64,000 nucleotides of DNA from Prostheceraeus crozeri. Its lineage: Eukaryota > Platyhelminthes > Polycladida > Euryleptidae. The number at the start of each line of letters is the position of its first letter. Positions within the stretch are counted from its first letter, which is position 1. The DNA lies in NCBI GenBank assembly GCA_907163375.1, contig CAJQUW010010372.1:136501-200500 (forward strand), written 5' to 3'. The notes below the pieces were generated by a model, which worked only from the letters and a program-made list of their open reading frames with translations, searched no databases and was not told where the DNA came from. This document shows positions 4,299-60,059 of this stretch, one piece after another. A program made the position numbers and the translations under genes.

Positions 4299-4545
4299 AG
4301 CGTTTCTTCCAACTTTGGTTCTAGAGATCGTAGAAAGTCGTGCAATAGCTCGTTTGAAAGCCAAGAGTGCCACAAATTGACTGGAAAGCACAGTTTGGCC
4401 CTATCTTTCATTGCTGAGGCTTGAGAGTGACATTGAGACTTTTGGTCATGTTAGAGAGCCGTCAGAGGTTGAGTTTTGTGTTTAGGACTCCAGCGGGCGA
4501 ACGAAGCATCAAACGAGAAAACTAAGACAAGATTTGGATTCAGCG
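4299..4545 (+). repeat. Left inverted repeat of Polinton 1
   Basis: This segment matches the reverse complement of 24466-24703 over about 240 bp with scattered mismatches. The shared core includes TTTGGTCATGTTAGAGAGCC and the CGGGCGAACGAAGCATC segment. The right copy is an open frame; the left copy has the same frame with one in-frame TGA. This suggests that a terminal coding segment was once present in both copies. Confidence 0.8.
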
Positions 4546-5254: not shown

Positions 5255-6419
5255 ATGACCAAAATGATTTATGCGCGTATACTGATTGGCAAGTGTAGCT
5301 GCGGCCATATTACCAGAGGCAGCGAACTAAAGAAACACATTAAAGAGGGGACGGTGGGCGAGCATGTGAGGAAAGTGTTGTTGAGGGTGTGTGTGTGTGT
5401 GTGCATCACAAGATAGTATGCGAGGAGGGGAGTGATGTAGAGTTCATTAGGAACCATAGCCAGTGCCCTAGTGGCAATATTAGTATGCAGGGGTTTAAGT
5501 CGTGGTTTGAGGGAGTTTTGATGGATATGGAAGAGGTGAGAATGGCAGTGGCGACGATTGAGGGTGCGGTGGGGAAGAAAGGTGTAACCAAGGCGACTGA
5601 TGAGGGTTTGAGTGAGGAAGAAGTGGAGTTGAGAGGGGACATCAAGAAGCCTGATGTTGATGTTGATTTGGATGACGTGTTGGAGGAATTGTTTGGGAAC
5701 ATTGGTGATCTTGAGGAGAAGGGGAAGGATGAAGGAAAGGAAGTGGGTAAGCCGTTGGCAGCATCATCGCCTCGGAGGGATGAAGGGAACACAAGGGATG
5801 AATATGTAAGGATGAAGGATCGATTGAGGGCGGTTGAGTAGAAGAATAATGTACTAGTGATGCGGAATGAGAAGTTGACTGCGAAGGCTGAAGGGTATAA
5901 GGTGACGAGAGAAGAGTTGGAAAGTATGAGGCAGAAGGAGAAAGAGTGGATGGCGGATAAGAGTGAGCTGATGAAGAAAGCAAGTTTGGTGAGTAGTCTG
6001 CAGGTGACTTTGTTGAGGAAGGATGATGAGATAGATCGTATGCGAAGTGTGGTGAAGGAAACAGAGTAAGTGAAGGGCGTGAACATGAGGTTGGTGTCGG
6101 AAGTGGAGCGATTGCATGAGCGCGAGAAGTGTAGAAAAAGAAGAGTGTATGAAGTCCATCTTCCCCTCTTCAAAAATAATGTGTGCGACGCTCCAACGAT
6201 CACTAGCGATCCCAATCAGACGCAGCAATGCTACGAGGGCGACGGAGTCCGATGTCTCCATATGAATATGGACATCACCGGCGAGCTTGAGGACTTCGTC
6301 GTCCGGAAAGCCCGGAAGAAAGTTCCCAGTAAGTTACTTCAACATGATCATTTCCTTACCGCATCTAATCTCCTATTCTTTTGCTTTCAGAGTTTTTACA
6401 TCAGTCGTAGGATCTTTTG
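5255..6419 (+). pseudogene. Unrecognised coiled-coil protein with N-terminal Cys/His motif
   Basis: An ATG at 5255 opens a frame with a GKCSCGHITRGSELKKH motif, possibly zinc-binding. A (GT)n run at about 5387-5402 shifts the frame. The continuation is open to a TAG at 5839-5841 and a TAA at 6067-6069, both in the same frame. It is rich in Glu, Lys and Asp with heptad-like spacing typical of coiled coils. A consensus intron (donor after 6329, acceptor TTTGCTTTCAG near 6390) joins the frame to a short last exon that stops just before the first histone-like stem-loop. I do not recognise the family. The long minus-strand frame over the same bases (5406-6215) looks like a shadow of this purine-biased strand. 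Confidence 0.4.
5387..5402 (+). repeat. (GT)n microsatellite inside the coiled-coil gene
   Basis: About eight GT units sit where the Cys/His-containing frame and the coiled-coil frame should join. Slippage in this tract is the likely cause of the frame break. Confidence 0.8.
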
Positions 6420-6439
6420 ATCCCGAGAACGCCCCAAAT

Positions 6440-6455
6440 GGCTCATTTAAGAGCC
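6440..6455 (+). promoter_or_regulatory. Histone-mRNA-like 3' stem-loop, copy 1
   Basis: GGCTCATTTAAGAGCC forms five pairs plus one A-A mismatch around a TTTA loop. It is preceded by CGAGAACGCCCCAAAT and follows the stop of the spliced upstream gene. Size, loop and A-rich 5' flank resemble the metazoan histone 3' stem-loop. Confidence 0.65.
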
Positions 6456-6468
6456 ACACGGAGCAAGA

Positions 6469-6527
6469 GTGATAGCACTCCCTCGTGGTTTGCTCTGGAC
6501 AGACTTCGGTCTGACTCAATCTATCAC
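6469..6527 (+). promoter_or_regulatory. Compound hairpin with UUCG tetraloop, copy 1
   Basis: GTGATAG (6469-6475) pairs with CTATCAC (6521-6527). Inside them is CAGAC-TTCG-GTCTG (6500-6513), a C(UUCG)G tetraloop hairpin. The same arrangement recurs at 6936-6994 with a compensatory change in the outer stem. Confidence 0.6.
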
Positions 6528-6610
6528 ATAATTAGAAAGACTGAGTCATGTCTTTGTATCAGAGGGGTATACAAATCATTGCCTCTTTCATTTTCATTCT
6601 ATACTCCATC

Positions 6611-6892
6611 ATGAAAACACCTAAGACGACAATCAGCTCTCCTGACAAGCCTCGGCTTACACCGAGAAATTTATTTATTGAGTTTCTAGAGATGGAGGAG
6701 CGAGAGCGAGTCTATAACAACCTTGCTCGAATTGGCTCATCAACAACTGACGATGATGTCGATTCAACAGAGTGGGGGTATATACCACCCTCTGACAGTC
6801 AGCTTATAGTAGAGGAGGTCGATGCCTCTGACAGAGAGATTACAAGTCTCTCTCAGCGGAATCGGCCAAACCTAAGTCCATTCATTTCCTGA
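6611..6892 (+). CDS. Small acidic protein of unknown function (93 aa)
   Basis: The frame runs from ATG 6611 to TGA 6890-6892. An upstream in-frame ATG at 6548 exists, but 6611 is chosen because the segment before it resembles promoter or leader sequence (GTATACAAAT, then a TCATTTTC tract). The protein starts with a Thr/Ser/Pro-rich segment. It continues with an FLEMEERERVYNNLARI amphipathic stretch and an acidic DDDVDSTEW patch. No known domain is recognised. It is one of the few intact frames in Polinton 1. Its stop lies 12 nt before the second, perfectly paired histone-like stem-loop, so the mRNA probably ends in that structure. It may be an accessory or regulatory protein of the element. 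Confidence 0.5.
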   Translation: MKTPKTTISSPDKPRLTPRNLFIEFLEMEERERVYNNLARIGSSTTDDDVDSTEWGYIPPSDSQLIVEEVDASDREITSLSQRNRPNLSPFIS

Positions 6893-6904
6893 GAACGAAC
6901 CAAC

Positions 6905-6920
6905 GGTCTTTTTAAAGACC
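6905..6920 (+). promoter_or_regulatory. Histone-mRNA-like 3' stem-loop, copy 2
   Basis: GGTCTTTTTAAAGACC has a perfect 6-bp stem and a TTTA loop. It is followed by ACCA and preceded by TGAGAACGAACCAAC. This matches the histone stem-loop pattern in stem length, 4-nt loop, purine/pyrimidine polarity, A/C-rich 5' flank and ACCA 3' flank. It lies 12 nt after the stop of the 93-aa gene. Confidence 0.75.
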
Positions 6921-6935
6921 ACCATGGGGCAAAAT

Positions 6936-6994
6936 ATGATAAGACCTCCACGTGGTTTGCCCTGGACAGACTTCGGTCTGACTGAATCTATCAT
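6936..6994 (+). promoter_or_regulatory. Compound hairpin with UUCG tetraloop, copy 2
   Basis: ATGATA (6936-6941) pairs with TATCAT (6989-6994) around CAGAC-TTCG-GTCTG (6967-6980). Compared with copy 1 the outer pair G-C has become A-T on both sides, which supports selection on structure. Confidence 0.6.
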
Positions 6995-7520
6995 ACAAAT
7001 AAAAAATAAAATCACAAAGTTGTATCTGCTATCAGTCAACTTAAACGTTGCATGTTAAGGAGGATTTCGGTATAATTCTTCCTGTTGGTGGGCGATCTCT
7101 CTTCAGACAGCGGATGATATCGTAGTGATAAGTGTGGCAAGGGAGTGTGTCATATTTTACACCGAAACCTCTGGGGCAACTCATGTTGGGCATTTGACAC
7201 AGTTCTCAACGCAACACTTTGAACGCCAATCGGTTGAGTCTTAGCTATCTGCCACAGGTTACTTTTTAAATTCTCCATTGCCAACGTTATCTGAGAATGA
7301 GCCATGAGTTCTTTTAAGAACTGCCTCTATCACTGAGGCTAAATGATGAAGGGATGAAATGGGAGGTCACTCTTACGCCACACGTATACAAAATCACTTT
7401 CCATCTTCTCTAATGGTGCGATCTCTTTTGATAGAAAAGTAGACCGATAATAAATGTGTTAACTAACCCCATATCTAGATTCCTCCATTTATTTCCATTT
7501 CTAGATAAATACATTGCAAA
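6995..7520. other. Non-coding stretch with a third stem-loop
   Basis: No gene is recognised between the second hairpin unit and the 3' end of the minus-strand small gene. The stem-loop at 7307-7322 suggests that a third plus-strand small gene once ended here and has decayed. Confidence 0.4.
7307..7322 (+). promoter_or_regulatory. Histone-mRNA-like 3' stem-loop, copy 3
   Basis: AGTTCTTTTAAGAACT has a perfect 6-bp stem and a TTTA loop. It is preceded by CTGAGAATGAGCCATG, the same GAGAAYG...CCA flank as the other two copies. The stem sequence is entirely different, while pairing and loop are kept. Confidence 0.65.
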
Positions 7521-7569
7521 ACAAAGACATGTAGTATGTAGGTTTATTTACAATTGAAGCACACATACT

Positions 7570-7821
7570 TTATAGCGAGGAAAAGTCAAGCGGAAGAACC
7601 TTTAAATCATTGTAGACTTTGTAGCACCTTGGTCGTTTTGGGGCATCGGGCGCTCTTCTCACGCGCGTTGTTTTTGGTGTAAAATCACGATTACTCCACA
7701 CAACTTGCACAATCTTGCCTTTATCATAAGTCTCCTTCCGATCGCACTCTTCATCCCACTCGTCGACCACTTCAAAGAATTTGTTGAAGATCTCTAAAGC
7801 GGGAGATGTACCTTCCATCAT
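7570..7821 (-). CDS. Small basic protein, member A of an inverted paralogous pair
   Basis: An 83-aa frame. Its C-terminal half contains a block beginning RRAPDAPKRPRCYKVYND and ending LKVLPL. That block is nearly identical to the one in the gene at 7985-8245 on the opposite strand. The N-terminal parts share an acidic/Cys-containing EW..E/K.DRKET.DKGK segment. Both genes are followed by the same TGTAAATAAA polyadenylation-like signal and a GAGG/CCTC hairpin, so the duplication is inverted and includes the 3' ends. No known domain is recognised. It is intact and is likely an accessory gene of Polinton 1. Confidence 0.55.
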   Translation of the reverse strand: MMEGTSPALEIFNKFFEVVDEWDEECDRKETYDKGKIVQVVWSNRDFTPKTTRVRRAPDAPKRPRCYKVYNDLKVLPLDFSSL

Positions 7822-7984: not shown

Positions 7985-8245
7985 ATGACAAACTCAGAAA
8001 CACTATGTAATTTTGTGATCGTCAATGAGTGGTGTGATAAAGACAAGTGTGATCAGAAGGAGACTTGCGACAAAGGCAAGACTGTAAGACTTGTCTGGAT
8101 AGATGAAGAGTGGACACCGAAAACAACGCCCGTGAGAAGAGCGCCAGATGCCCCAAAACGACCAAGGTGCTACAAAGTCTACAATGACTTAAAGGTTCTT
8201 CCGCTTTTCCTCAACATAAAGTATATGTGCTTCAATTGTAAATAA
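7985..8245 (+). CDS. Small basic protein, member B of an inverted paralogous pair
   Basis: An 86-aa frame divergent from the gene at 7570-7821 and clearly paralogous to it. The RRAPDAPKRPRCYKVYND block and the following LKVLPL are shared, and the N-terminal WCDKDKCDQKETCDKGK segment aligns with the other copy. The end of the frame (NIKYMCFNCK) reads into what is non-coding in the other copy, so the C-terminus may be slightly extended by mutation. AATAAA lies directly at the stop. Function is unknown. Conserved Arg/Pro/Lys runs would fit nucleic-acid or nuclear-import binding, which is inference only. Confidence 0.55.
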   Translation: MTNSETLCNFVIVNEWCDKDKCDQKETCDKGKTVRLVWIDEEWTPKTTPVRRAPDAPKRPRCYKVYNDLKVLPLFLNIKYMCFNCK

Positions 8246-8466
8246 ATCTAAAGAACTATATGTCTCTGTTTTTGATATTCAATCCCTTTATCATTTATCC
8301 TCAGTGATAGAGGTAGTATTTAGGAAAAATAATGGTGTCTAGCATCAGCTGCTATGATTTATACTGAGCTGTCAAATGATTGGATTTTCACTATGATGTT
8401 GATGACTACATTACCCAGAAATAAGTGAAAACAGACAGATATAGCAAATAAAACATTTATTGGAAA

Positions 8467-14748: not shown

Positions 14749-16112
14749 TTAATGCTTCATTCGAAAATGGAGTGTGATACTTGTCACAGCATCTTTATGA
14801 AAAGGAATCAACGCACCAGTATCGTCATAAATTGCAATATCAATTTGAGGTATATAGTTTGATTTCAAGTTTGTATAATGCACTTTCTGAAAAGTATGCT
14901 CAGATAGAAGTGGAGCTTCAACATCTCCCACACGTACATCTTCACCAATACTGGAATATATCTAATAAAATAGTTAATACGACGCGATAACGATATGCTC
15001 GCGCTAGCTTTTGTTACAGTACTACCTTCATAAGTATTTTGATCAAATCCCAAAATGTCCATTAGGGTATTGTCCATAATCAGCTCAATATTTTTCCCAC
15101 TTACACCAAGACACTGAACATCTTCTTTTTCAGAAAAAGAAATATGCTGTTCATTAATCAGTTCATTCTAATTTGTAGCCAATTTCACTGAAGTGATAAT
15201 GCGAGGTGTCAACACTCTTGTTTTATGTAAGATATCACCTAAAGGATCTATACACTTTCTGTATAAAGATACGGACTATTCTGTATCAAATTGATTTGAA
15301 CTATTACGTCCCAGATAGCGCATATTAAATTTTCCATGAACAGCTGCAGAACGATGTCGTAAGAACTGATGAAAATTTTCTGAACAAACCAATACTAGAT
15401 CATCATCCTCTAGTTTATTGATTGCGATATTACTAGACCCTTTGTTGCAAGTTAATGTTGCCACTTGTTCACCATCTACTCGAAGGAGATAATTAAATTT
15501 ATTCAATAATGCTTCAGGAGTCATGTTCGTCTTTCTTGCTTTAATCACAATCTTCTTCACCAACGTCTTTTCATTTTTCGGAATAAGATGCACATAATAG
15601 GCTTTGTCTTTATAAATTAAATTTTTGCCACCTGTTGGATAGTAATTAGCTTTATAATTATCATAGCTTGTCAAGGCGCTAGCAAAGTAACCTAAATCAT
15701 TTCTTAAACTCGGACTCAAAGCAACAATCCAATCTTTATCAACTGCATGATACATATGATCATATTCACTATTGTGGGGAGTAAACTCGACAATGTGTCT
15801 ACATGCTTTATTCAGGAAATCAAATGCGAATTTTTTACATGTTGAGAAATCTTTCTTCGGCCATTTCGGAATGTCAACTCGACATCCCTCTTCACACTGA
15901 TAGGCATCTGTACGTCTCATATTAATAGTCATCACTTCATGATCCAAAGTATAGACATAGTTACTGTGAACAATTTGGGTGACGCCTACTTCCCACTTCC
16001 CATTCAGCTGTTGTGTATTATCAATCGGAGTAGAAAAGATAGCAGCTCGATTGCCAACATATCTATTTGTTGCCACATTGCTAAGCAATACATGATAGAA
16101 TGACATTTTCAT
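14749..16112 (-). pseudogene. Minor-capsid-type structural protein A of Polinton 1
   Basis: It starts at 16112 with SFYHVLLSNVATNRYVGN and a GKWEVGVTQIVHSNYVYT segment, the Polinton minor capsid opening. The C-terminus reads IDIAIYDDTGALIPFHKD followed by ITLHFR, again typical. The first 278 codons are open. Two in-frame stops (near 15276 and 15170) and one frameshift (near 14935) then break it. The full length would be about 450 codons, normal for the family. The same C-terminal pattern appears in the Polinton 2 gene at 38688-39490, so the two elements share this protein. It is divergent from the small gene at 16149. Confidence 0.8.
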
Positions 16113-23406: not shown

Positions 23407-24292
23407 CTATAACATATTACAAAATGATGAAGTACATCGATGCTGTTCACGACAAAATACACAAATAACATAATGGCAGCGAAGAAGTAAAATGTATCTG
23501 ATAAGTCCACGTCTACGACACTCAAAGCACATAAGCGCATTGCCATAAGGTAGAGATAGGTAAGGACTAGCGATTCTCCTTTGTTTTGCGTTTAGCGGAA
23601 TCATTCTTCTCTGACTTACGCTTCGTACCGCTCTCGTTGAGGATTTGATAAATAATGTTATTAACATCTGGCTGCTTCGGTATATATAGGATGGATTGAG
23701 TATGCATTGCTATAGAGGCCAATTTATTATCCTTGTGATAGCCATAATATAGTCCGCTTATTGTCCGCTTGTTCATCTCCTTCCTTTTATATAGTATGAG
23801 CACAAATGCGATAGTGGTAAAGAAAGCTTTTTACCATCCCATATCTTTCTATATGGAGTATCATTGTCGTTTCTCGCCTTCCATTCCTTGCTAATGGGAG
23901 TAGGGATGTCCATATTTAATGTTGCAAACTCTTCAATAATATCGAGTTGGCGACGAATGTATGGATTCACAGGAATGACTACGTAGTCCCCATACTGATT
24001 GTTCAATAGCTTCACTTCAGTGGAAGGAAGCATTCCCGTTTGCAATACTATGCTATGATCGTAATATCGCATGGCTTGTCTAAATTTACGCTGTAGTGGG
24101 GTAGGATTATGTACCTTTGTTGTCTCTTCTACTGGCCTCAATATAAGACGATCTGATTGTAGAGATCCTTGTAACGTCTGAACACTATCTTTTCCTGTAA
24201 ATGTAGTAGATGTAGTAGATGCCTGAAAATAAAAGAGATGCTATTTAGTTAACACTCAAAGAAGGAGAGGAAGGAAGGTTCCGACTTACCAC
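23407..24292 (-). pseudogene. Spliced protein with C-terminal RING-type finger
   Basis: A short exon ends at 24290; its last codon is GTG where an ATG is expected. It is followed by an intron (24289-24223, GTAAGT...TTTCAG) and an exon starting GCATCTACT. The same arrangement opens polymerase B (ATG|GTAAGT...CAG|GCATCTACT), so the start codon has probably mutated. The protein has a Ser/Thr-rich start and a PLQRKFRQAMRYYDHSIVL region. It ends with ALMCFECRRRGLI plus LLRCHYVICVFCREQHRC, a RING-like Cys/His pattern. Frameshifts lie near 23790 and 23600. It is likely the first gene of the leftward transcript from the right terminus. Confidence 0.5.
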
Positions 24293-24445: not shown

Positions 24446-24465
24446 CAAGTTGATTCCAAATCTGG

Positions 24466-24703
24466 TCTCAGTTTTCTCGTCCGATGCTTCGTTCGCCCGC
24501 TGGAGTCCTAAACACAAAACTCAACCTCTGACGGCTCTCTAACATGACCAAAAGTCTCAATGTCACTCTCAAGCCTCGGCAATGGAAGATAGGGACAAAC
24601 TGTGCTTTCCAATGAATTTGTGGCACTCTTAGCTTTCAAACGAGCTATTGCACGACTCTCCACCATTTCTAGAACCAAAGTTTGAAGATCGCTGCCGAAG
24701 GGG
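24466..24703 (-). repeat. Right inverted repeat of Polinton 1
   Basis: The reverse complement matches 4299-4545. On the minus strand it is part of an open 90-codon frame (24780-24508) that includes ESRAIARLKAKSATN and FGHVREPSEVEFCV. The corresponding left copy has a stop. The frame belongs to no family I recognise. Confidence 0.8.
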
Positions 24704-26027: not shown

Positions 26028-29000
26028 GACTTACTTACTTGACTTAAGTCCTGACTGACGGCGTGTCAGGTTGGGTCCCACATTGAACGTCTGAATGATA
26101 TCCATCTTTCACGATGTCTTGCTTGATGCAGCATTTCTTCTGCTATGACATGGCTGTTGGCTGATCGAAACTGCTGCCACCAGTTGATTCGAGGGCGGCC
26201 CCTTGGCCGTGTCCCATGCACTCTCCCGTGCAACATCATCTTGGGACATCTCTTCTCATACATTCTCTCCACATGGCCGAACCATCTTCGTTGTTGGTCT
26301 TCGATCACATTCAATATACTTCTCCATCCTACCGCCATTTCTCTCAATCGCATGTTTGGTACTCTGTCTTGCCATCGGATGTTCAGCATTCGTCGTAGGC
26401 AGTTCATCTCGAATGCTTCAGCTTTCTCTTTCTTTGCTCTTCAGGATCCAGCTTTCCGATCCGTTAATCGCTGTTGGAATCACTATGGCGGTTAGAAGTC
26501 GGAACTTTAGTTGCAGTGGTATGCGGCGGCTTTTCCACAGTTTGCTGAGTTTGCCCAGTGCCACGTACCCCATGCTCACTCTCTTTCTCACACAGCTTTC
26601 CAAGTGTCTCTATTTTGTGAAAAGAGGACAACAAGGTATTTGAAGGTGTCAACCTGCTCCACCAGATCAGCGCCCAATGATATGCGGATTTTCTCCTCTC
26701 TCCTGCTGAACACGATCGCTTTCGTTTTTGTTACACTAATTTTCAGCTTGTACTTAGAGCAGGTTCGGTAGATGCTATCCGTCATTGCTTGAAGTTGCTC
26801 ACAGGAATCGGCAACAAGGACTATGTCATCTGCATATCTGAAGTTATTTATGCACTGTCCAGCAATGAAAATACCGTCCTCTTCGTGTTCTTTTAAGCTC
26901 TCTTTCATCACATATTCCAAAAAGATGTTAAAGAGATGCGGTGAGAGGGGGCATCCTTGCAAAATTCCTCTTCTCGTTGGAAAAACGTCCGTGGATATCT
27001 TCCCCTTTCTGACTGTCGCTAGTGTCTGGTTGTTCAGCATTCGGATGACTTCAATGATGTCTCTGTCAAAGCCGTACCATTCTAGTATAGACTCCATCGC
27101 TGGTCTCCAAACAGAATCGAAGGCCTTCTCAAAATCAGTGAACAGGCAGAACACGTCTCTGTCCATCTCCCACATTCTCTCAGTCAATTGTGAGAAAATA
27201 TTTGGTCCGTCGTGCCTCTACCGGCTCTAAAACCAGCCTGTTCTTCATCGGGAATCGTCTCCTCCTTTGCTTCAATTCTCTTCTGTAGAATTTTCGCCAT
27301 AACTTTGTAAGAATCAGATAGGAGACTTATTGGCCTATAGTTGTTACGTTCTGTCACGTCGCCTTTTTTGAACAATGGCACTATTTCTGCAGCGGTCCAA
27401 TCAGTGGCCAATGAGCCCCTTTGTAGCGCATCATTGTACAATCTTAACAGCCACTTCTCAACAGGCTCTCCTCCCGTTTGAAGCATCTCCACTGTTACCG
27501 CATCCTTCCCTGGGGCTTTGTTTGTTGACATCTGTTGAATGCTTTTTCTTACTTCATCAGCTATAATAGGTGGTGTACTTTCTTCATTTAATACTCTCCT
27601 GAACTGTGGGAAGATGTCCAAACAGAAATCTTCGTCGTACTCTCCATAGATCTTAGTGAAGTGTTCTCTCCATGCCTGTGATACGCTTTCTTCGTCAGCT
27701 ACTTTTTCACCTTGGTTGTTTTCTATCACCATGGAATTGTTATTTCGAGTGTTCGATAACTCCTTCACAGTTCTAAACAAGGTGCGAGAGCTACCGTGAC
27801 GAAAATTAGCTTCACAGCTACGACACTTCTCCTCAATCCATCTGTTCTCTGCTCTTTTGCACTCCCTTTTCACTTCACTACACGCCCTTCTGTATTATTC
27901 CTTGTTGTCGTCTGTTGGGCATCTGTTTTTCCTTCTTTTTGCCTCTTCTTCTATCACAACTATTGAGTACTTCCTCCGTCATCCATGGCTGTCACATGTG
28001 TCTCCTATGACCGAGGACTTCCTCTGAGGTTTTAACCAGGATTTCTTTTCCTTGGCTCTCGAGTTCTTCTACACTGAGGTTCTGCTCTTGAATCTGTTAA
28101 AATTTGCTTTCCAAACTCGTCTCGAAAGCTCGCTTCACGTTCGGGTCACTAAGTTTGTCCGCGTTGAATCTCAAATTCCCTTTCCGTCAGTAGCTGCAGT
28201 TTTGAATTTTATCCTCACATTAGCGAGAATAAGCTCATGATCACTCCCAAAATCAGTACCTCTCCTCACCGTCACGTCGTTCATTGCCGATGCCCATATT
28301 TTCTTAGTTAGGACGTAATCGATGCAACTTCTATGCCTCCCATCTGGGTGATTCCAGGTGAATTTGTGCCTTTCTGTGTGTCTAAAGAAAGTATTCATCA
28401 CACAAAGACCTTTTTCTTTGCAGAAGTCCAACATCTTTTCTCCTCTCTCGTTGCGGTCTCCGATTCCAAAATTCCTCAAAACGTCCTCGTAGCCGCCCTT
28501 GTCTCTGCCAACTTTACTATTGAAGTCTCCGATTATGTACAGGAGATCCTTCGATTTAGTTCTGCTCACCTCTTCCGATAATGACTCATAGAAAAGCTCG
28601 ACTTCTTCATCTTCGTGGCTTGAGTCCAGAGCGTACACTTGAATGATTTTCGCATTCTTGTGCTGGCCCTTCAGAGTCACCGATATTATTCTTGGCGACA
28701 CCGGTCTGTGTTCCAGATAAGCCTTCTGGGCTTCCTTATTCAAGAGAATTGCGACACCTTCCCGATGTATACCATCATCACGACCAGATAAAAGCACTCT
28801 CACTCCATCCGATGTCAGCTCTCCCACGCCGATCCAGTGGGTTTCCGCTACTCCTAGGAGGTCCCATTTGTATCTATTGATCTCTCTAACTGCACAAGCC
28901 AGCTTTCCTGGTGCATACCAAGTACGAACATTAACTGTGGCTAGAGTCGTAACTCTTTTTGCGGATCACATAACATATTTTCCACCACGGGACTGTGGTC

Positions 29001-33346: not shown

Positions 33347-34588
33347 AAGTGATGTGCGGCTATAACCGTAGTTGCGGTTAACTGCGGTTAACCGTTGTGA
33401 CCACGGTTAATGACCACAGCGGTCAAAAGTACTACGGTTATAGTCGGTCACGGTTAACGTGACCAGTGATTGTGGTTAATCTCGGTTACATTTTGAATTG
33501 GAATATAAATTTCTCTTTTTGTTTTACTTTTGAAACTTTAAATTAATGGCAATTGACTATTGTCTTAAAGTTGAAAAATAACAAGATATTTATAGAAATC
33601 TGAATAATGTCAGAATCATCATACGTGTTGTATCATGAAAATTAATTGTACAGGTATGCTAGGTTTGTGCATTTGCTTTACTTAAAATTAACACCTCTGT
33701 TAGATGTCTGCGTAAGCAAGTAGACGACTGTAACATGATATATTACATAATTGGCTGCAAGTTCTAATCTCAGTTATTGGTATGAGAACATGTACGTACA
33801 CAATATCAAAGTTAATAACAATTAAAAACTTTAACGCTCGATAGACTTGATCTTGACTTTCCATTTACCACGACTAATCATGTCTCACATTCAGGCCACC
33901 TTAATGGGATATTTCCATATACATGTAGGCCTAGACTACGAACTATGATTAGGAGGATACGCAAAATCTTTCTTATTTAATCACAAGTAGGCCTCTTTGG
34001 TGTAGACCATCCTATGCGGTAACGTAGCCTGCACTATATACAGGTATAATTATTAGCTGACCTATCTTGATTGAAGCGTCTGTCAAATAAAGGAAAGAAT
34101 AGCTTAATCACATAGTGTACCATAGGCCAATAGAACAATCGCCTATATGATTCGCATTTGTAACGCATGCAAAACCGCTGTCTTTGACTACATGTGTACA
34201 TGTATTTGATAAACTGCATTAACCACGAATTTTTTAAAAATGAAGCTTTGTATAATAATAGCTGGGCAAGATAAGCCAAGCTGGCACAGGTCTATTAGTC
34301 AGTATTTTGTCGATAAGTGATGTGAAGCATGTCATGCATAAGACTATTATGCAAGCTGTAGTTTATTACGATGACCAGTAGGTAACCGATATAATGCATT
34401 GATTCAACAAGCGCATACGTTCAAACGATTAACAGTCGGATATACAATATGTATATCCGACATACATGTATCTCTGCGGTTAACGGTCGGTTACGGTCAG
34501 AACTCTAACGGTTGCGGTTGGTCACAGTTGTAAATCCCATTATTGCGGTTGGTTACGGTTAAGAAATTCATGTAACCGCACATCACTA
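33347..34588. mobile_element. Non-autonomous hAT with CGGTTA subterminal arrays
   Basis: The left end is AAGTGATGTGCGG and the right end is CCGCACATCACTA, an inverted match in 12 of 13 positions. Both are flanked by the 8-bp duplication TTTCAGAT (33339-33346 and 34589-34596). Many CGGTTA / TAACCG motifs cluster at 33355-33490 and 34470-34580. There is no transposase. The length is 1242 bp. Confidence 0.9.
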
Positions 34589-36686: not shown

Positions 36687-37440
36687 AGTAATGTATATAT
36701 GACCGGTCCAGGAAAACCAAAAAAAAATAAGATACCTCAAAAATGCAAACAATGTATATATGACCGACTCAGGACAACTAAAAAAAATAAGATACCTCCA
36801 GAATGAGTATAGGAAATATTTCATACACTGAAAAAGTTTTATAAATAAAAATAATATTACGGATAAAATCAAAAAAACAGTTTTAAGCTCGTTGGGATTT
36901 TTCCTTATACTGAAAAGAGGTTCCAAAAATATCACGTGGTCGAAAATTTAGGTAGTCTAAAAAATATCAAAAATTTACATAGTCTAAGAATTTCACTTAG
37001 TCGAAAATTTCCGTAGTCTAAAATTTAGGTAGTCTAAAAATTTCACATAGTCTAAAAGAATCAGAAGATTGTATTCAAAATATTTATTAAAAAATGGAAA
37101 CCTCAAAAGTGGAAGAAACCTCAAAAATGAAAGAAACTTCGAGAATGGAAGGAACTTCGAGAATATAGCCTTAGTTAATAAATGAACGTAGTTCTACTTT
37201 AATGGACATTGAAAAGATGAACATTGAAAAACACAAAGATAGAGTACGTTATATGAAAGATAAGGAATCTCAATTATTATTAAGATTAGAGCATTATGAT
37301 CAATTAAGAAAGAGATGGTCTAAAGTCAAGAATGTAACGCAAGGCACTGGAATATCTTTAACAATAAGTTTAGGAGTATTTACAATTGTTATTTCTTCAG
37401 GTGTTTTAGTAATTCCAGTAGTTGCTACTGCTTTAACAGG
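36687..37440 (+). repeat. Left terminal inverted repeat of Polinton 2
   Basis: It matches the reverse complement of 59167-60059 throughout. The largest difference is copy number in the internal GTCTA/TAGAC array (36955-37060). The 5' part of the gene at 37202 lies within the repeat. Confidence 0.92.
36940..37060 (+). repeat. Subterminal tandem array, left TIR
   Basis: About six degenerate units of the form TAGTCTAAAATTT(A/C)(G/A) with GTAG / CATAG spacing. The corresponding right array is about twice as long. Confidence 0.7.
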
Positions 37441-40589: not shown

Positions 40590-42222
40590 TTATTTATTTA
40601 AAAACCTTTAGGAGGTATGACATACCGTTGTAATCTGCAGTGTGATTGATCTTAGGTTGATACTCTTTTATCATTAAAGCTTCTACAACATTTATATGAT
40701 AATTACTGTTACCTTTATACCTTATGCGAAATTGATTACTTATATCATACGTACAATGATTACATGTATTGACATGTTTGTAAACTGCTGTATCTGTACT
40801 TCTATGCTCTTCGATCCTTTGTTGGAGTCTTCGTTTGGTTTTGCCAATATATTGGCTGCTTGGATCACCCAAGCATGTGAATTCATAGACCACACAAGAC
40901 TTCAGCAAAGGTCCCGATTTGCATTTCAAAGAGAAGTATGATTTTACTTTCGTAGTGTTGAATACAATCTTAGAGTTGATACCGTATCTTTTGTATATTT
41001 TCATAAAATTATTCCGTAATGTAAGCGATGGTTGACCAATATACGGAAGAACTGTATAGTTTACATGTGCATCTGCTGTACTCGTACATGTATCATTGTG
41101 CCCGTTGGAAATCACTGTATTCTTTTTGTTAAGAAAGTTACGTACGATTTTTTCTACTGTACTCCGAGGGTAGCCGTTTTTCTGAAAAATACTAGTCATG
41201 TTTTCTACTTCGTTATGAAACATTTCCCAGCAGTTTGATACTGTATATGCTCGATGTAACATCCCATTAATAAGTCCAACTTTCCATTGCCTAGGGCAAA
41301 AGAATTGTAATTTAATAAGAGGCCAGTATACGTATCTTTACGGTAAATGGAAGTTTGTAAAGTATCTTCAGTGTTAATGAATACATCTAGGAAAGGTAAC
41401 TTGTTGTTGCCCACTTCAGTGGTGAATTTTAGGTTAGGATGTTGTCTGTTTAGGTACTCATGGAATTTGTGAATTTTGTCTACGTTATCAAATACGCATA
41501 TGCAGTCATCTACATATCTGGAGTAGAACAGGGGCGAAAATTGTTCTCCCATCCAACCTTGTTCTAATTCTGCTAGGAAGAGATTGGCAAGCGTTGGTGC
41601 CAACGGTGAACCCATCGAAACTCCATCTGTTTGAGTATACATATTATCATTATACATAAAGCTACCTTGTGTAGCGAATTTACAAAGTTTTATGAAAACA
41701 TCTTTACCGTATCGCGGTTTGTTGTTTGAATTACTACTGTATACTAGGTTAGCTGCTATGTTAATAACTTCATCTACAGGTACATTGGTAAACAGTGATT
41801 CCACGTCAAAACTCACTAAGACATTATTCTTATTAAATACCGACTGTCTTTCTTTAATTCTGTCAATAAATTCAGCTGTTGAACTCAGCAGGTACGTTTT
41901 ATTGATGTGTTGTTTAATAATTGTATCGAGGTACTTGGTCAAATTGTAATTGTACGACCCTCTTGTACTGACAATTGGTGGAGCAGGAGCGTTAGTTTTA
42001 TGTACTTTTATCGTACCGTACATTTTAGCTGGTTCACTACCAGATGGCATAATGTACTTGTATGTGTCTTCAGTGATGTACCGTTTTACATATTTTACTA
42101 AGTATCGATACAATCTGCCTTCTTCCATAATGGTAGGGTGCTTTTCTAAGTCATCTGGTACTTGTACTTTTTTAAACTTAGAGGTATCATTGATAATTAC
42201 GTCTAATTTGTTAAAGTAACAA
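40590..42222 (-). mobile_element. Penelope-like element 1 (RT plus GIY-YIG endonuclease)
   Basis: It lies within Polinton 2 between the ATPase and polymerase B. It is transcribed leftward and its 5' part is truncated: coding starts in the KLDVIIND / KFKKVQVPDD region upstream of the RT core. The 5' junction carries a 23-bp inverted duplicate of the element's own first bases. Confidence 0.88.
40594..42219 (-). pseudogene. Penelope-like RT-GIY-YIG polyprotein, one frameshift
   Basis: The reverse transcriptase (42219-41240) shows SFDVESLFTNVP, a TQTDGVSMGSPLAPTLANLF motif B region, the catalytic YSRYVDDCICVF and LPFLDVFI. A frameshift near 41240 leads to the second frame, with VVYEFTCLGDPSSQYIGKTK and LQQRIEEHR, the GIY-YIG nuclease core. 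The nearly intact state suggests it is younger than the host Polinton. The N-terminus is missing. Confidence 0.9.
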
Positions 42223-42245
42223 ACTTTAACAAATTAGACGTAATT
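42195..42245. repeat. Junction palindrome between Penelope 1 and polymerase B
   Basis: 23-bp arms (42195-42217 and 42223-42245) flank a 5-nt loop. The right arm also forms the end of the polymerase reading frame, where its stop codon lies. Confidence 0.9.
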
Positions 42246-44929
42246 TGAATTAAGTCTATAATTACATGCTGTTTTTATTTCATTGTTAAATAATGCATTC
42301 TTATAATCTTGAAATGTTATTTGGTTAGCCACTGATGCCTTTGAAATTCCTTTTAATGTTTTAGATGTTTTTGAACTTGTGCTAGAATTTGTGTTATAAC
42401 AATAACATTTAGGTTTTAAAAATACAGCTTCTGTTATGTGCTCTTCATTTCCTTCTAGTTCATCTTTTACTTTACATAAATCAGAAGAATGAATGATATC
42501 TTTCATTTTATTAATTTCTTCATCAAGTGAAGAATTATACGGTATTGTTAATTCTAAGAAAACGCTATCAGTATCTGTAAAGTGTAATTTATAGTTTTCG
42601 CCATAAGCAGGTGCTAAATAATCATATATAAATCTATACATAAATAGTTTAGCCAATTCTAATATAGTGAATCCTATAAAATTAAACTTATCATGTTTTA
42701 TAATGTTTCGTCTTAGATGCACTGCACATAGTTCATCACTGAATCTAGTAGTTCTTTTATATGTAGGTTTCCTTGTTAAATTTTGAAACCTATCTTTATC
42801 ATAAACTATTTCAATATTTTGTCTATTACGCACATTTTCAAAAGTCTCACCATACAATGCATTATTCATTAATTTAAAGAACACGCTTCCAAAATCATCT
42901 TTATTTCTTTTATCTATTTTACGTTTTTCAATATTGAACTCTATATAATCATTTAACCACCTACATTTTCTATACACTAGTTTCCGGTGAATTTTAACAA
43001 GAATCATTCCATGATCTAAATACCAATCTAGCATTCTTCCTTCAACAACATACTTTCCTTTATTACTTTGTGTTAAGTTCCTTTGTTGGCCTGTATTTCT
43101 TAGGAATTAAAGATTTTTGATAATCTGAAAAATCCTCTATATTGGGAATTTTGTTTTCGGGACAGAATGGATAATATTTTGTTGCGCCTTTTATATAATC
43201 AGGGCATGCTAAATCAACTTCATATATGTAACCATAATTATTTTCACCATCTAATGTAGGTTTGTATTCAAGAATGATTAAACAATTTTATAAACTGATC
43301 GCTTCTTGTATCATGCAAGAAGAATATAAGCTACTAAAATCATAATATAACAAATACTTTTCTCTCATGAATTCATCAACTGCTGCTTGACTCTCTTCAT
43401 TTGATATAAGTCCTTCTACATTTTGATTAAACAACTTTATAAACTGATCGCTTTCTTCTGGAGATAAAGGTTTATATATTCCATAATCATCAGGATTTAC
43501 TTTCTTATTATAACATTTAACATATCTATTACCTAGAGCAGATAAAACACCACCTCTAATTCCAGATTCCAAAAATAATAATTTATCATAAGAACTTTCT
43601 TCATGATATTTAAGTTTAACATTTGTATGTTTCAACCCTGCTAACCATGTTAATCCTGATGTAGAATAACAATAACATGGATCTATTCCGTAATATTCTA
43701 CATACATGTTACGAAAGTTTTCAAAAAGATCATCAAGGATTAATACATCTATCTGAAGATATTTCATTGTATAATCATACATTGTTCTACAATTTAACTC
43801 TCTCCAATTCTTTTCAGCTTCTGCATAGTCTTCTTCAGATAGTTGTGATTGTTTTAATGTTGATTTAAATTTATCACGTGAAGAAAGTTGATGTTCTTGC
43901 ATTATTTCATTTATTCTATTTATATCTCCAGTTAAATATTCGTAGGGAAAAATACCTTTTAAAGGTTTTAAATTATATTTATTTAATATTTTACATTGTT
44001 CAGGTTTCAAAGTTTTTCCCATGACCTCTAGTGAATAACGATTAAAAAATTTAAATGCATCTAATATTCTAATACAACCAAATTGCATTGAAAAATATTC
44101 TTCTTCTGTTTTACATAGTACGTTTGTTCTTAGTTGTTGTAATTTTTCAGATGAGAATAGATCTTTTATTATTAAATGGAAATCATATTTAGAACCATTG
44201 TAGAAATATAAAGGCACAAAGTTATATCTAAATTTATTAGCATTAAGATTACAAGAATTATGTGCTGCACCTCTATATAATCCATTTAGATTATCATGAT
44301 TTTTTACTTTATAAGTTGTAAATTCTTTTCCACAGTAATAACAATTTTTTTCATTATCAAATTGTACTAATTGGTCATACGTTAATGGAGGCATTGGTTT
44401 ATTTGTTTTAAGCAATTGTGAAAAATATTTTTGTAATTCTTCTATTTTCTTTGTAAACATTTCTGAACTATATTCACCATAGTATTGATAATATTCTGAT
44501 TTAAATAATTCAGGATAATTTGAATGAATGTACATTCCCCAACATAATGGTTTTTGTTCAAGCAAATGCTTACCAGAACTTTGTGTCATGTTAACATTAT
44601 ATGCTTCAAAATCACAATATATAATAAAGGGTACTTTATTTTTGTAATACCATTTATTATATACTAAATAATCTTCTTTAATAAAAGTATTTTTAACTGC
44701 TTCATTTTGTTGACAATTCTTCTTTAGTTCTAAAGCTCGTCATACATTGGAGACAGGGAAAATTTGCATTATCTGAAGATTATAGAAATATCTTTACACA
44801 ATATGTAATGACCTTGATAATATAGTATATTCGCTTGTGCTGGTTGCATTAACTGCTGCTTTAACATTTTTAACTTTTGTTGATATTCCTGTTGTAATAT
44901 TTCTAACTAATTGTTCAACGTGGTCATAC

Positions 44930-50316: not shown

Positions 50317-52490
50317 TTAGTCGAAAATCAGTCGACTTACCATCTGCAATTTTACTTTGCTTAGGCAATGGCCTATATCTTGAATGAGACAGATTCTCCG
50401 TGAACTTTCGCTTATTTGAGTTCTGTTTATTTTGCATTTTTTGTATCTCATCCAGCTTCGTTTGAGCACTACTCCAATATTCTCGACATTCTTATTTTGG
50501 ATTGCTGTTTTGATTTTTGCACTAGCTTCTTTCATCAAATTATTTGCCACGGACATTTCTCTCTCCATTATTCGATCCATATCGTGGAATTCCCGCAATC
50601 TTGAATTGATATTTTCTTTTTCAATTTCGACCTGTTCTTGTTCCGCTTCGGCTTTGGATGTATCTTCCTTACTTTTTGACGCTTTTGATTTCTGTATGCT
50701 GTCTTTGTAGGTGGCTCGAGCAGCGGTCATTCTTTCTATCAGCGACTTTGTTATCGGCAAATTTTCAGGTTTCTCTCCCAACGACATCAAGCTGTCATTA
50801 GTAGTTCTAAGAGCCTTAATACTTGAAGAGACAAAGACGTTCTAGTAGTGACCATAAAGAACTTATTCCGTGAAAAGCCTCTTTCAACATCTGCACTTCC
50901 GTGAAAGAAGCACAATACTGCTTTACTCAACTTTGTCAAAATTGGGTACTTAATCTGTCCATCAGTCCGCTTCGAAAAAAAATTATTTCTCGGATACCAA
51001 AGTTATATTATTCTGCCAAATATTTCGGCTTCCGCATTCGTCAGTGGCAATAGAGCACAGAATGATGTTACAATTGCAGGACTGCATGAAGAACCTGTTG
51101 TGAATAGTTATCAATTAAAAGTCAATACCCTTTGAGATAAAAAGTCAAAACAAGCACTCTACTGAATAAAAGTAGACAGTAACTACGTAGATGAAATAAA
51201 ATATGACACGGCAATAAAAACAAGCAATCATTTCAATAAGAAAATAAACAATGATACATAAGTATAAGAAGGCTCAATGAAGAGAAAATGAGGTACTCAA
51301 GACAAAGTCAAAGAGACTCCACGGTATCCATTCATCAATTCGAACTCGTTTGATAGTTTGCGGATGTATAATGCTTCAAGCTTCTTCCTCTTCGCTTTAT
51401 GACTTTATTGACTTTTAATTGATAACTATTCACAACAGGTTCTTCATGCAGTCCTGCAATTGTAACATCATTCTGTGCTCTATTGCCACTGACGAAGGCG
51501 GAAGCCGAAATATTTGGCAGAATAATATAACTTTGGTATCCGAGAAATAATTTTTTTTCGAATTATGAATGACCGGATACGTGGAGGACAGCCTACCTTG
51601 GCCACTTGCGCATCAGTCCGCTTAATTTGAAATACTTTGCTCCAGTATGCGTCAACTAGAACGGAAGAGTACCACGACTCCTGGATCAATGGTTCGATGG
51701 AATATTGCATCCATTCATCCACGAGTTAATCAATCTCGTTTGGTTTCACAACAGCTTTCAAGTTTTGGCTTAATATTTTGACATGAGTCAATCCGTTTTC
51801 TTCCGTTCTGCATGAAGGGCTCATGCACCGCTAAGACTTCAAAACAGGATTAGAAAGTGGGAGCTTTTTCGATAGGTGTCCCGCAACCGCGACGTAAAAC
51901 CTTTTGACATCGGCCCGAAAACTCAAGTGCTGTGATGGAGTACAATGTTTGAGTAACGATTCTGCTTTTACCCTATGTGAATTGTCTCAAGTTGGTTTTC
52001 AGTACATTCCATGTCAATTTCTAAAAGCTGATGTCCTTCTTTTTGTGCAACAGTGTTCGGTCGGATGAATCTCAACAGTAACATTCTGATCAAATCAGAC
52101 AACTGGGTGGGTGTACAATAAATGTACAAGCGGGCCTTCCGTTTGGAAAAAACGTTCAAATTTGTCAAAAACCGATGAAACAGAGACAATGAAATGGATT
52201 TCGGCTTCGAAGGTTCTATCCTGCAGTGCAGCTACCATTCTGTTGTATCGAGCGTTGGATGTGCAAATTTTGTTATTCTGTTTTATAGACACTAAGAAAT
52301 ATTGCTTCAGTGCAACAAATTGCTCTGTTAATCTGATACACACAGGTCCCAGTGACAGCATCATTAATGTAAACTCCACCTGTAAATTATGCAAAAAACA
52401 CATCCGAAATCTGTTCAACGTATACTTGTATACTTTCCCCACTGATGTCTTTAACAATGATACATCATTATCAACATTAATACATTTTTA
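50317..52490 (-). pseudogene. hAT-family transposase remnant
   Basis: In minus-strand order: CIRLTEQFVALKQYFL, FDKFERFFQTEGPLVHLLY and LIRMLLLRFIRPNTV (52457-51968); WYSSVLVDAYWSKVFQIKR (51722-51600); KAVLCFFHGSADVERGFSRN (near 50920), the dimerisation-domain signature; then a helical C-terminus to 50317. This order matches a large animal family of hAT-derived transposases with an LSHGNADVERGFS-type motif. Many frames are broken, and a 157-bp foldback interrupts the middle. Confidence 0.75.
50971..51562. repeat. Large foldback with 157-bp near-identical arms
   Basis: Arms at 50971-51127 and 51406-51562 are inverse copies; one mismatch was noticed (CGCATTCG versus CGCCTTCG). The loop is 278 bp. 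The arms include transposase coding sequence (YYSAKYFGFRLRQWQ), so a piece of the gene was copied in reverse. Confidence 0.92.
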
Positions 52491-59166: not shown

Positions 59167-60059
59167 TGCAAAGCAGTAGCAACTATTGGAATTACTAAAA
59201 CACCTGAAGAAATAACAATTGTAAATACTCCTAAACTTATTGTGAAAAAATTCCAATGCCTTGTGTTACATTCTTAACTTTAGACCACCTCTTTCTTAAT
59301 TTATCATAATGCTCTAATCTTAATAATAATTGAGATTCCTTATCTTTCATATAACGTACTCTATCTTTGTTTTTCAATGTTCATCTTTTCAATGTCCATT
59401 AAAGTAGAACTACGTTCATTTATTAACTAAGGCCATATTCTCGAAGTTTCTTCCATTCTCGAAGTTTCTTCCATTTTTGAGGTTTCTTCCACTTTTGAGG
59501 TTTCCATTTTTTAATAAATATTTTGAATACAATCTTCTGATATTTTTAGACTATGTGAAATTTTTAGACTACCTAAATTTTCGACTACGTAAATTTTCGA
59601 CTACGTGAAATTCTATGACTACCTAAATTTTGAGACTACTTAAATTTTCGACTACGTGAAATTTTGAGACTACCTAAATTTTAGACTACGTGAAATTTTT
59701 AGACTACGTGAAATTCTTAGACTACCTAAATTTTTGGACTACATATATTTTCGACCACGTGATATTTTTTAGACTACGTGAAACTTTGATATTTTTTGGA
59801 CTACGTGATATTTTTGAAACCTGTTTTCAGTATATGAAAAAATCCCAACGACCTTAAAACTGTTTTTTTGATTTTATCCTTAATATTATTTTTATTTATA
59901 AAACCATTTTTCAGTGTATGAAATATTTCCTATACTCATTCTGGAGGCATCTTATTTTTTTATTTGTCCTGAATCGGTCATATATACATTTTTTGCATTT
60001 TTGAGGTATCTTATTTTTTTTTGTTTTGGTTGTCCTGGACCGGTCATCTACACATAACT
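59167..60059 (-). repeat. Right terminal inverted repeat of Polinton 2
   Basis: The reverse complement matches 36687-37440. It includes a broken, truncated copy of the start of the membrane-protein gene (59167-59400) and an expanded internal array. Confidence 0.92.
59540..59800 (-). repeat. Subterminal tandem array, right TIR
   Basis: About thirteen degenerate units of the type GACTACGTGAAATTTTTA / GACTACCTAAATTTTC. Many contain CACGTG-like or TACGTG cores. The left TIR has about half as many. Confidence 0.75.

Follow-up and report, generated by a model that had tools for sequence, protein, structure and literature searches.

The window, the whole 64,000-nucleotide stretch of Prostheceraeus crozeri DNA that was analysed, contains an element that we take from its general layout to be a Polinton/Maverick, most of its core-gene pieces being below the Pfam cut-offs. 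The element has terminal inverted repeats with 238-nt arms and about 20 kb between them. Its polymerase region is divided among several frames, and the DNA_pol_B_2 piece has 22.5 bits (Pfam cut-off 25.8). The rve piece, with 21.2 bits (cut-off 32.6), and the DJR-like piece, with 14.5 bits (cut-off 27), are also below, while Endonuclease_7 (32.2 bits, cut-off 23.6) and a Chromo domain close to the integrase piece (28.0 bits, cut-off 25.1) are above. A chromodomain near the integrase is expected in Polintons. The left part of the element, between the left terminal repeat on one side and the broken polymerase region on the other, holds two small accessory genes, and behind each of them is a 3′-end unit of about 115 nt, hereafter referred to as the module. 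The module is composed, in this order, of a GAGAACG..CCAA flank, a histone-type stem-loop, a linker of 4–5 nt and a predicted HDV-like ribozyme architecture. The features are:

4305–4542, no strand: left terminal inverted repeat of the Polinton, 238 nt, 93% complementary to 24451–24688
6070–6410, plus strand: 3′ part of gene 1; stop codon TAG at 6408–6410 if spliced, TGA at 6418–6420 if unspliced
6425–6439, plus strand: conserved 5′ flank of copy 1 (GAGAACG...CAAAT), from sequence comparison
6440–6455, plus strand: histone-type stem-loop 1 (5 bp and A.A, TTTA in the loop), RF00032 14.9 bits
6456–6459, plus strand: linker ACAC, 4 nt; predicted ribozyme cut between 6459 and 6460
6460–6527, plus strand: predicted HDV-like ribozyme 1, from descriptors, pair comparison and folding
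6611–6892, plus strand: gene 2, 93-aa protein with homologues P0001 and P0002
6891–6904, plus strand: conserved 5′ flank of copy 2 (GAGAACG..CCAAC), from sequence comparison
6905–6920, plus strand: histone-type stem-loop 2 (6 bp, loop TTTA), RF00032 27.9 bits
6921–6925, plus strand: linker ACCAT, 5 nt; predicted ribozyme cut between 6925 and 6926
6926–6995, plus strand: predicted HDV-like ribozyme 2, from descriptors; the HDV-F-prausnitzii model starts at 6926
6998–7010, plus strand: two AATAAA signals (6998 and 7005), immediately 3′ of ribozyme 2
7293–7322, plus strand: copy 3, GAGAATG flank and stem-loop 7307–7322, without a descriptor match behind
24451–24688, no strand: right terminal inverted repeat of the Polinton, partner of 4305–4542

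The distance from the stop codon to the stem-loop is short for both genes. In gene 2, whose protein has no Pfam family up to E 1, stem-loop 2 starts 12 nt after the TGA at 6890–6892. In gene 1, the distance is 29 nt if a predicted intron at 6329–6390 (GTAAGTT...TTTCAG; splice sites by eye only) is removed, and 19 nt if it is kept. Copies 1 and 2 of the module are homologous over about 115 nt, from GAGAACG to about 6530 and 6997, respectively, where the similarity fades, and a direct repeat between them, D1, has 84% identity over 69 nt. The two copies are paralogues and hence not independent finds. The module is adjoined by a divergent gene pair, held in an inverted duplication (7302–7748 and 8046–8335). 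One half of the pair has an AATAAA at 8241, and the other half, on the minus strand, has one at about 7545, the latter located by eye. Because of these signals next to the module, ordinary and stem-loop 3′ ends may exist side by side within one Polinton.

Comparison of the stem-loops with the histone model

The preliminary description of this DNA had pointed to three histone-type stem-loops with covarying stems, at 6440, 6905 and 7307. The three 16-mers are present there, each with TTTA in the loop, and the GAGAAYG..CC attributed to their upstream side is found in all three, with GAGAAYG starting 15, 14 and 14 nt before the stem. The proximity of copy 2 to a stop codon and the ACCA downstream of it are likewise as described. 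A stem of 6 bp had been given for all copies; copies 2 and 3 have it, but the stem of copy 1 has 5 bp with an A.A on top. Covariation of the stems is found between copies 1 and 2, where three of the six stem positions are changed on both sides and still paired.

The preliminary description had also proposed a comparison with the Rfam histone stem-loop model, RF00032. Copy 2 aligned to it over the full model length with 27.9 bits, which is a significant match (E 9.4e-4 over 64 kb and 4227 families; 1.7e-6 over 116 bases) but below the curated gathering score of 34, a score reached by none of the three copies. The flanks of copy 2, CCAAC before and ACCAT after the stem-loop, correspond to the A/C-rich 5′ flank and the ACC(C)A 3′ flank of the histone type. 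Copy 1 has 14.9 bits (E 0.11 over 116 bases) and is not listed for RF00032 up to E 10 over 64 kb. Its stem letters are canonical except for the A.A on top, and its flanks, CAAAT before and ACAC after, match the histone-type flanks in part. Copy 3 aligned with 11.0 bits over the stem and loop only, and its flanks, CCATG before and GCCT after, are not of the histone type and have no ACCA. In the Rfam scan of the 64-kb window, no family among the 4227 reached its gathering score. The reading as a histone-type 3′ stem-loop fits copy 2, extends to copy 1 through its homology with copy 2, and is weak for copy 3.

Hairpins of 6 pairs with TTTN or CTTN loops are many in the window when G.U is allowed, and requiring a TTTA loop and Watson-Crick pairs leaves copies 2 and 3 only, as judged by eye. 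Copy 3 was also considered as a complete third module and rejected, having no descriptor match and, up to E 10, three families of which none is a ribozyme. Read on the minus strand, it has a loop TAAA, which is not histone-like. Copy 3 is possibly a decayed relative of the module.

Predicted ribozyme architecture behind copies 1 and 2

The main point beyond the preliminary description is what follows the first two stem-loops. Judged from the sequence, an HDV-like ribozyme architecture lies directly behind copies 1 and 2 with a probability of about 0.85. It starts 4 nt (copy 1) and 5 nt (copy 2) after the stem-loop and continues for about 70 nt, and its parts are arranged as P1, P2, P3, P3′, P1′, P4, P4′, P2′, which is the order of the HDV ribozyme fold. 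The parts are:

6460–6466 and 6490–6496, plus strand: ribozyme 1, P1
6469–6475 and 6521–6527, plus strand: ribozyme 1, P2
6477–6479 and 6487–6489, plus strand: ribozyme 1, P3, with L3 at 6480–6486 (7 nt)
6497–6498, plus strand: ribozyme 1, GG for P1.1, directly after P1′
6500–6504 and 6509–6513, plus strand: ribozyme 1, P4, with the putative catalytic C at 6515
6926–6932 and 6957–6963, plus strand: ribozyme 2, P1
6935–6941 and 6989–6995, plus strand: ribozyme 2, P2
6944–6946 and 6954–6956, plus strand: ribozyme 2, P3, with L3 at 6947–6953
6964–6965, plus strand: ribozyme 2, GG for P1.1
6967–6971 and 6976–6980, plus strand: ribozyme 2, P4, with the putative catalytic C at 6982

Both copies have the pairing pattern of a nested double pseudoknot, with a P1 of 7 pairs that opens with G.U and a P1.1 made of the GG with the CC of L3. 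In both, L3 has CC at positions 2 and 3 and G at position 6, and J4/2 contains C, then U, one variable base and AA. The CC and G of L3, the GG for P1.1 and the C of J4/2 are hallmarks of the HDV fold. GCUAAG in the HDV-F-prausnitzii model is aligned, with an internal gap, to ACUGAA in J4/2 of copy 2; the equivalent segment of copy 1 is ACUCAA. The catalytic C of HDV-like ribozymes is located in J4/2 according to passages of PMC10879173.

A tight HDV descriptor, which was composed after copies 1 and 2 had been seen, matched at 6460 and 6926 only (64 kb, both strands) and had no match in 400 first-order Markov resampled windows (51.2 Mb of strand). A loose descriptor matched both copies and position 34438 in the window, with 0 or 1 match in each of 6 Markov resamplings. 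A second terminal-repeat element, at about 36.7–60.0 kb, has no match to the tight descriptor. The 6-pair hairpins of that element with TTTN or CTTN loops are A/T-rich or have G.U pairs.

Independently of any descriptor, cmscan of 116 bases around copy 2 gave, with an E limit of 10, five families, among them three HDV-fold ribozymes. The three are HDV-F-prausnitzii, with model position 1 at 6926 (21.0 bits, E 0.028, gathering score 44), CPEB3 (17.3 bits, E 0.015, gathering score 35) and drz-agam-1, over P3/L3 only with 12 of 13 letters identical (10.6 bits, E 8.9, gathering score 37). Within these 116 bases, no HDV-fold family reaches its gathering score. CPEB3 is the sole HDV-fold family left in a scan of 2201 bases (E 0.29), and none is listed up to E 10 in the scan of the whole 64 kb. 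For copy 1, even the scan of 116 bases gives no HDV family with E up to 10.

Single-strand folding is blind to pseudoknots and is thus of limited value here. When the ribozyme alone was folded, P1 formed in both copies with pair probabilities of 0.64–1.0, P4 had 0.99–1.0 in copy 1 and 0.55 in copy 2, and P3 had 0 and 0.14–0.16 in the two copies. In the fold of 6420–6560, stem-loop 1 is retained and P1 is lost. The z-scores of these single-strand folds are -3.28, -1.48 and -1.44 for copies 1, 2 and 3, respectively.

Paired changes between the copies and in a homologous protein

To compare copies 1 and 2, the structural register was set by hand, because MAFFT had aligned their stem-loops with a shift of one base. 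The comparison comprises 23 pairs: 6 of the stem-loop, 7 of P1, 7 of P2 and 3 of P3; P4, identical in both copies, was omitted. Fifteen pairs are identical, five are changed on both sides and still paired (three in the stem-loop, one in P1 and one in P2), one is changed on one side, and two are unpaired in one copy. The latter are the A.A of stem-loop 1 and one P2 pair of copy 2, an inner pair that is lost in the shared register and made good by one outer pair. Six of the eight pairs that differ between the copies remain paired in both. At least five two-sided, pair-preserving changes had a frequency of 1e-5 in a null simulation in which equal numbers of substitutions were placed randomly.

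When the gene-2 protein was compared with 5.8 billion proteins, two relatives emerged, P0001 and P0002. P0001 stops short of the module and is therefore uninformative on it. P0002, a protein of 131 amino acids from a 686-bp contig (ENA) that is known as protein only, continues past the gene into ENATNGSFKSHMGQKVIVPPRGLSWTDFGLTESITQI, which is the module in translation. The codons of P0002 permit 28 of 28 pairs (stem-loop 6, P1 7, P2 7, P3 3, P4 5), including a full 6-bp stem, while none of 3000 permuted P0002 peptides permits all 28, in a control that takes no account of the ancestry P0002 shares with copy 2. Under the genetic code, the serine codons of P0002 are incompatible, on each side of the stem, with the C-G that copy 2 has at stem position four, and the stem of P0002 is therefore not merely that of copy 2. 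When P0002 aligned with the frame of the window served as the query, P0002 itself was the sole result out of 42 candidates.

Protein-guided searches of IMG/VR, with two pieces of the PolB region, the gene at 15276–16112 (as an 11-sequence alignment) and the capsid-type piece as queries, found no relatives. A 22-base ribozyme pattern had no match in IMG/VR, and a ribozyme pattern had none in bacterial and archaeal genomes. A canonical stem-loop pattern was found in six IMG/VR contigs. All six lack CCAA immediately 5′ of the stem, and the 68,272 bases from these contigs contain no match to the tight descriptor.

Proposed 3′ ends of the Polinton mRNAs

The module suggests a route to a 3′ end that could be described as follows. 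The transcript would extend through the module, the HDV-like ribozyme would fold, and it would cut at its own 5′ edge. Since an HDV ribozyme cleaves at its own 5′ edge, the cut would fall 4–5 nt past the stem-loop, close to the histone cut, for which the usual distance is 4–5 nt after the stem. This match in position would make a histone-like end possible without the U7 snRNP, and the mRNA would be left with such an end and without poly(A). The host stem-loop binding protein (SLBP) would then bind the stem-loop and serve export, translation and stability. An HDV-type cut end would bear a 2′,3′-cyclic phosphate, which histone mRNAs do not, and this counts against the proposal. Passages of PMC7026596 place the cleavage of histone pre-mRNA between the stem-loop and the downstream element, and those of PMC6303110 give cut sites for one enzyme at 5 and 7 nt after the stem.

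On the evidence of the pairing patterns and the spacing, the ribozyme probably makes the 3′ end of these Polinton mRNAs. Binding by SLBP and coupling of the mRNAs to S phase are proposed more tentatively, with the odds slightly against them. Passages of PMC12775136 describe an S-phase rise of SLBP of about 20-fold and state that histone mRNA decay needs the loop close to the stop codon. With such a rise, mRNAs that depend on SLBP would be favoured in S phase. The AATAAA pair behind ribozyme 2 is a possible fallback poly(A) site for the case that the ribozyme fails. As a switch, it would let gene 2 end in the stem-loop or in poly(A), as decided by whether the ribozyme wins. In its widest form the proposal is that, in a Polinton lineage of animals, the U7 snRNP/CPSF73 step is replaced by a cis HDV-like ribozyme, giving poly(A)-free, SLBP-bound accessory mRNAs outside the histone locus body, with the AATAAA switch behind ribozyme 2; so stated it could well be wrong, though it has a serious chance of being right.

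The alternatives are in part compatible with one another. The ribozyme may be real and the hairpin not an SLBP target but a folding aid, or a 3′ hairpin that blocks exonucleases, for example in expression away from the host 3′-end machinery; this would be compatible with the cutting step. The missing top pair of copy 1 and the poor copy 3 would fit such a hairpin. However, copy 2 combines a CCAA flank, GG at the base, 6 bp, a UUUA loop and ACCA, and the codons of P0002 permit the full 6-bp stem, which makes a hairpin of this other kind unlikely. The architecture could also be a relic, derived from an active ancestor and no longer working in the present copy, as the polymerase region split over several frames, the decayed look of copy 3 and the A.A pair of copy 1 might indicate. 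Against decay stand the six of eight differing pairs that are paired in both copies, and we regard it as quite unlikely.

The preliminary description had assumed an ordinary histone-type end. The host U7 snRNP and CPSF73 would then cut, and the sequence behind the hairpin would be a purine-rich downstream element. The match of the stem-loop to RF00032 agrees with this, and purine-rich stretches, GGAGCAAGAG and GGGGCAAAATATGATAAGA, do follow both loops; these stretches, identified by eye, lie within the predicted ribozyme and are the only candidates for such an element. However, the region that follows the loop has the pairing of P1 and P2 in a double pseudoknot, includes pairs changed on both sides, and resembles the HDV models, albeit below their cut-offs, while a downstream element requires no such pairing. 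The assumption is not supported: the place right after the stem is occupied by a predicted HDV-like architecture that would itself make the 3′ end, and cleavage by the U7 route is improbable. That the module is protein-coding and its RNA structure a by-product is hardly credible: although P0002 reads through the module and open frames span parts of it, copy 2 has one base fewer before the stem and one more after it than copy 1, so that the stem falls in a different frame in each copy, the frame of P0002 hits a stop in P2 of copy 1, gene 2 ends at 6892, and the coding explanation therefore fails.

In the preferred reading, a histone-type end cut by a predicted cis ribozyme, the module can be compared with several known systems. 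With the metazoan replication-dependent histone mRNA end (RF00032; SLBP, U7 snRNP, CPSF73) it shares the 6-bp stem and UUUA loop (copy 2), the CCAA flank, the ACCA after the stem, the proximity to the stop codon and the predicted end 4–5 nt past the stem. It differs in that it follows transposon genes, scores below the Rfam cut-off and has a cis ribozyme architecture in place of the U7-binding element. With the HDV, CPEB3, drz-agam, HDV-F-prausnitzii, R2 and L1Tc ribozymes it shares the nested double pseudoknot, the 7-bp P1 opening with G.U and, as far as the letters are concerned, the CC and G of L3, the GG for P1.1 and the C of J4/2. Unlike these, the predicted Polinton ribozymes belong to a DNA transposon and lie 3′-terminally in protein genes. 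For R2 and L1Tc, a cut just upstream of the ribozyme frees the retrotransposon RNA from a longer transcript, according to passages of PMC3774820 and PMC4035085. The Leishmania ribozymes treated in PMC4035085 are also located in 3′ untranslated regions; there, the ribozymes of mobile elements are tied to down-regulation of mRNA, and the passages concerned mention no histone-type hairpin. The theta ribozymes of gut phages, as presented in passages of PMC10879173, often have their cut site beside an upstream structured RNA, a tRNA, whose 3′ end they are proposed to process. They serve phage tRNAs and are minimal, without P4, whereas the Polinton module has an mRNA, a histone-type hairpin and P4. 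The order of stem-loop and HDV ribozyme is the same in a laboratory fusion described in passages of PMC12775136, in which a histone stem-loop RNA with a shortened stem was joined to the ribozyme for exact 3′ ends; that fusion is engineered and was used in vitro, and the Polinton module is natural.

Histone stem-loops naturally linked to HDV-like ribozymes are absent from the titles and opening abstract lines listed from the open PubMed Central library. The one paper there that mentions both adintovirus and ribozyme (PMC11071296) has ribozyme passages about anelloviruses and adabscoviruses. The parts of the module are of known kinds, and their natural combination, a histone-type end that would be cut by a cis ribozyme, appears to be new as far as the open literature was searched. 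The module is also similar to an RNA deliberately built in a laboratory (as far as PMC12775136 describes it). If the proposal is true, ends of this type would have a second case in a mobile element whose own ribozyme produces them, and, as protein-coding mRNAs that end in a stem-loop, the transcripts of the element would form a second natural class. This would also give HDV-like ribozymes another role, and would hint that Polintons may tune their expression to host DNA replication.

Divergent paralogues in an inverted duplication

Two small paralogous genes, arranged divergently, are contained in an inverted duplication.

7302-7748 / 8046-8335: inverted duplication with the divergent gene pair

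The 3' flanks of both paralogues have CCTCAGTGATAGAGG and a nearby ATCA in common, and these segments, as judged by eye from the sequence, could form an H-type pseudoknot.

Reading frames on the minus strand

23407-23709, minus strand: cysteine-rich ORF of 100 amino acids
22065-22373, minus strand: ORF of 102 amino acids with weak RING-finger matches

The 100-residue ORF, for which no Pfam family was found up to an E-value of 1, includes an LxCxE motif (as LMCFE), a motif type known from retinoblastoma-binding proteins. The best RING-finger match of the 102-residue ORF, to zf-C3HC4_2, scored 18.8 bits, which is below the cut-off of 27.

Retrotransposon remnant and second Polinton-like element

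Next to the first Polinton, the element with the stem-loop and predicted ribozyme modules, lies a non-LTR retrotransposon remnant on the minus strand [27184-28827], with matches to endonuclease and reverse transcriptase. The second large Polinton-like element is about 23 kb in size.

36687-37434 / 59170-60059: terminal inverted repeats of the second element
41205-42128: reverse-transcriptase ORF within this element

A DNA_pol_B_2 match within the second element [42234-43034] scored 23.1 bits and so falls short of Pfam's threshold for the family, 25.8. Segment 42194-42246 is, on the minus strand, a near-perfect A/T-rich hairpin, which matches MIR6288 weakly (27.9 bits of 74). The element also has an inverted repeat [50971-51562], composed of 157-nt arms that are 99% complementary and separated by a 278-nt spacer.
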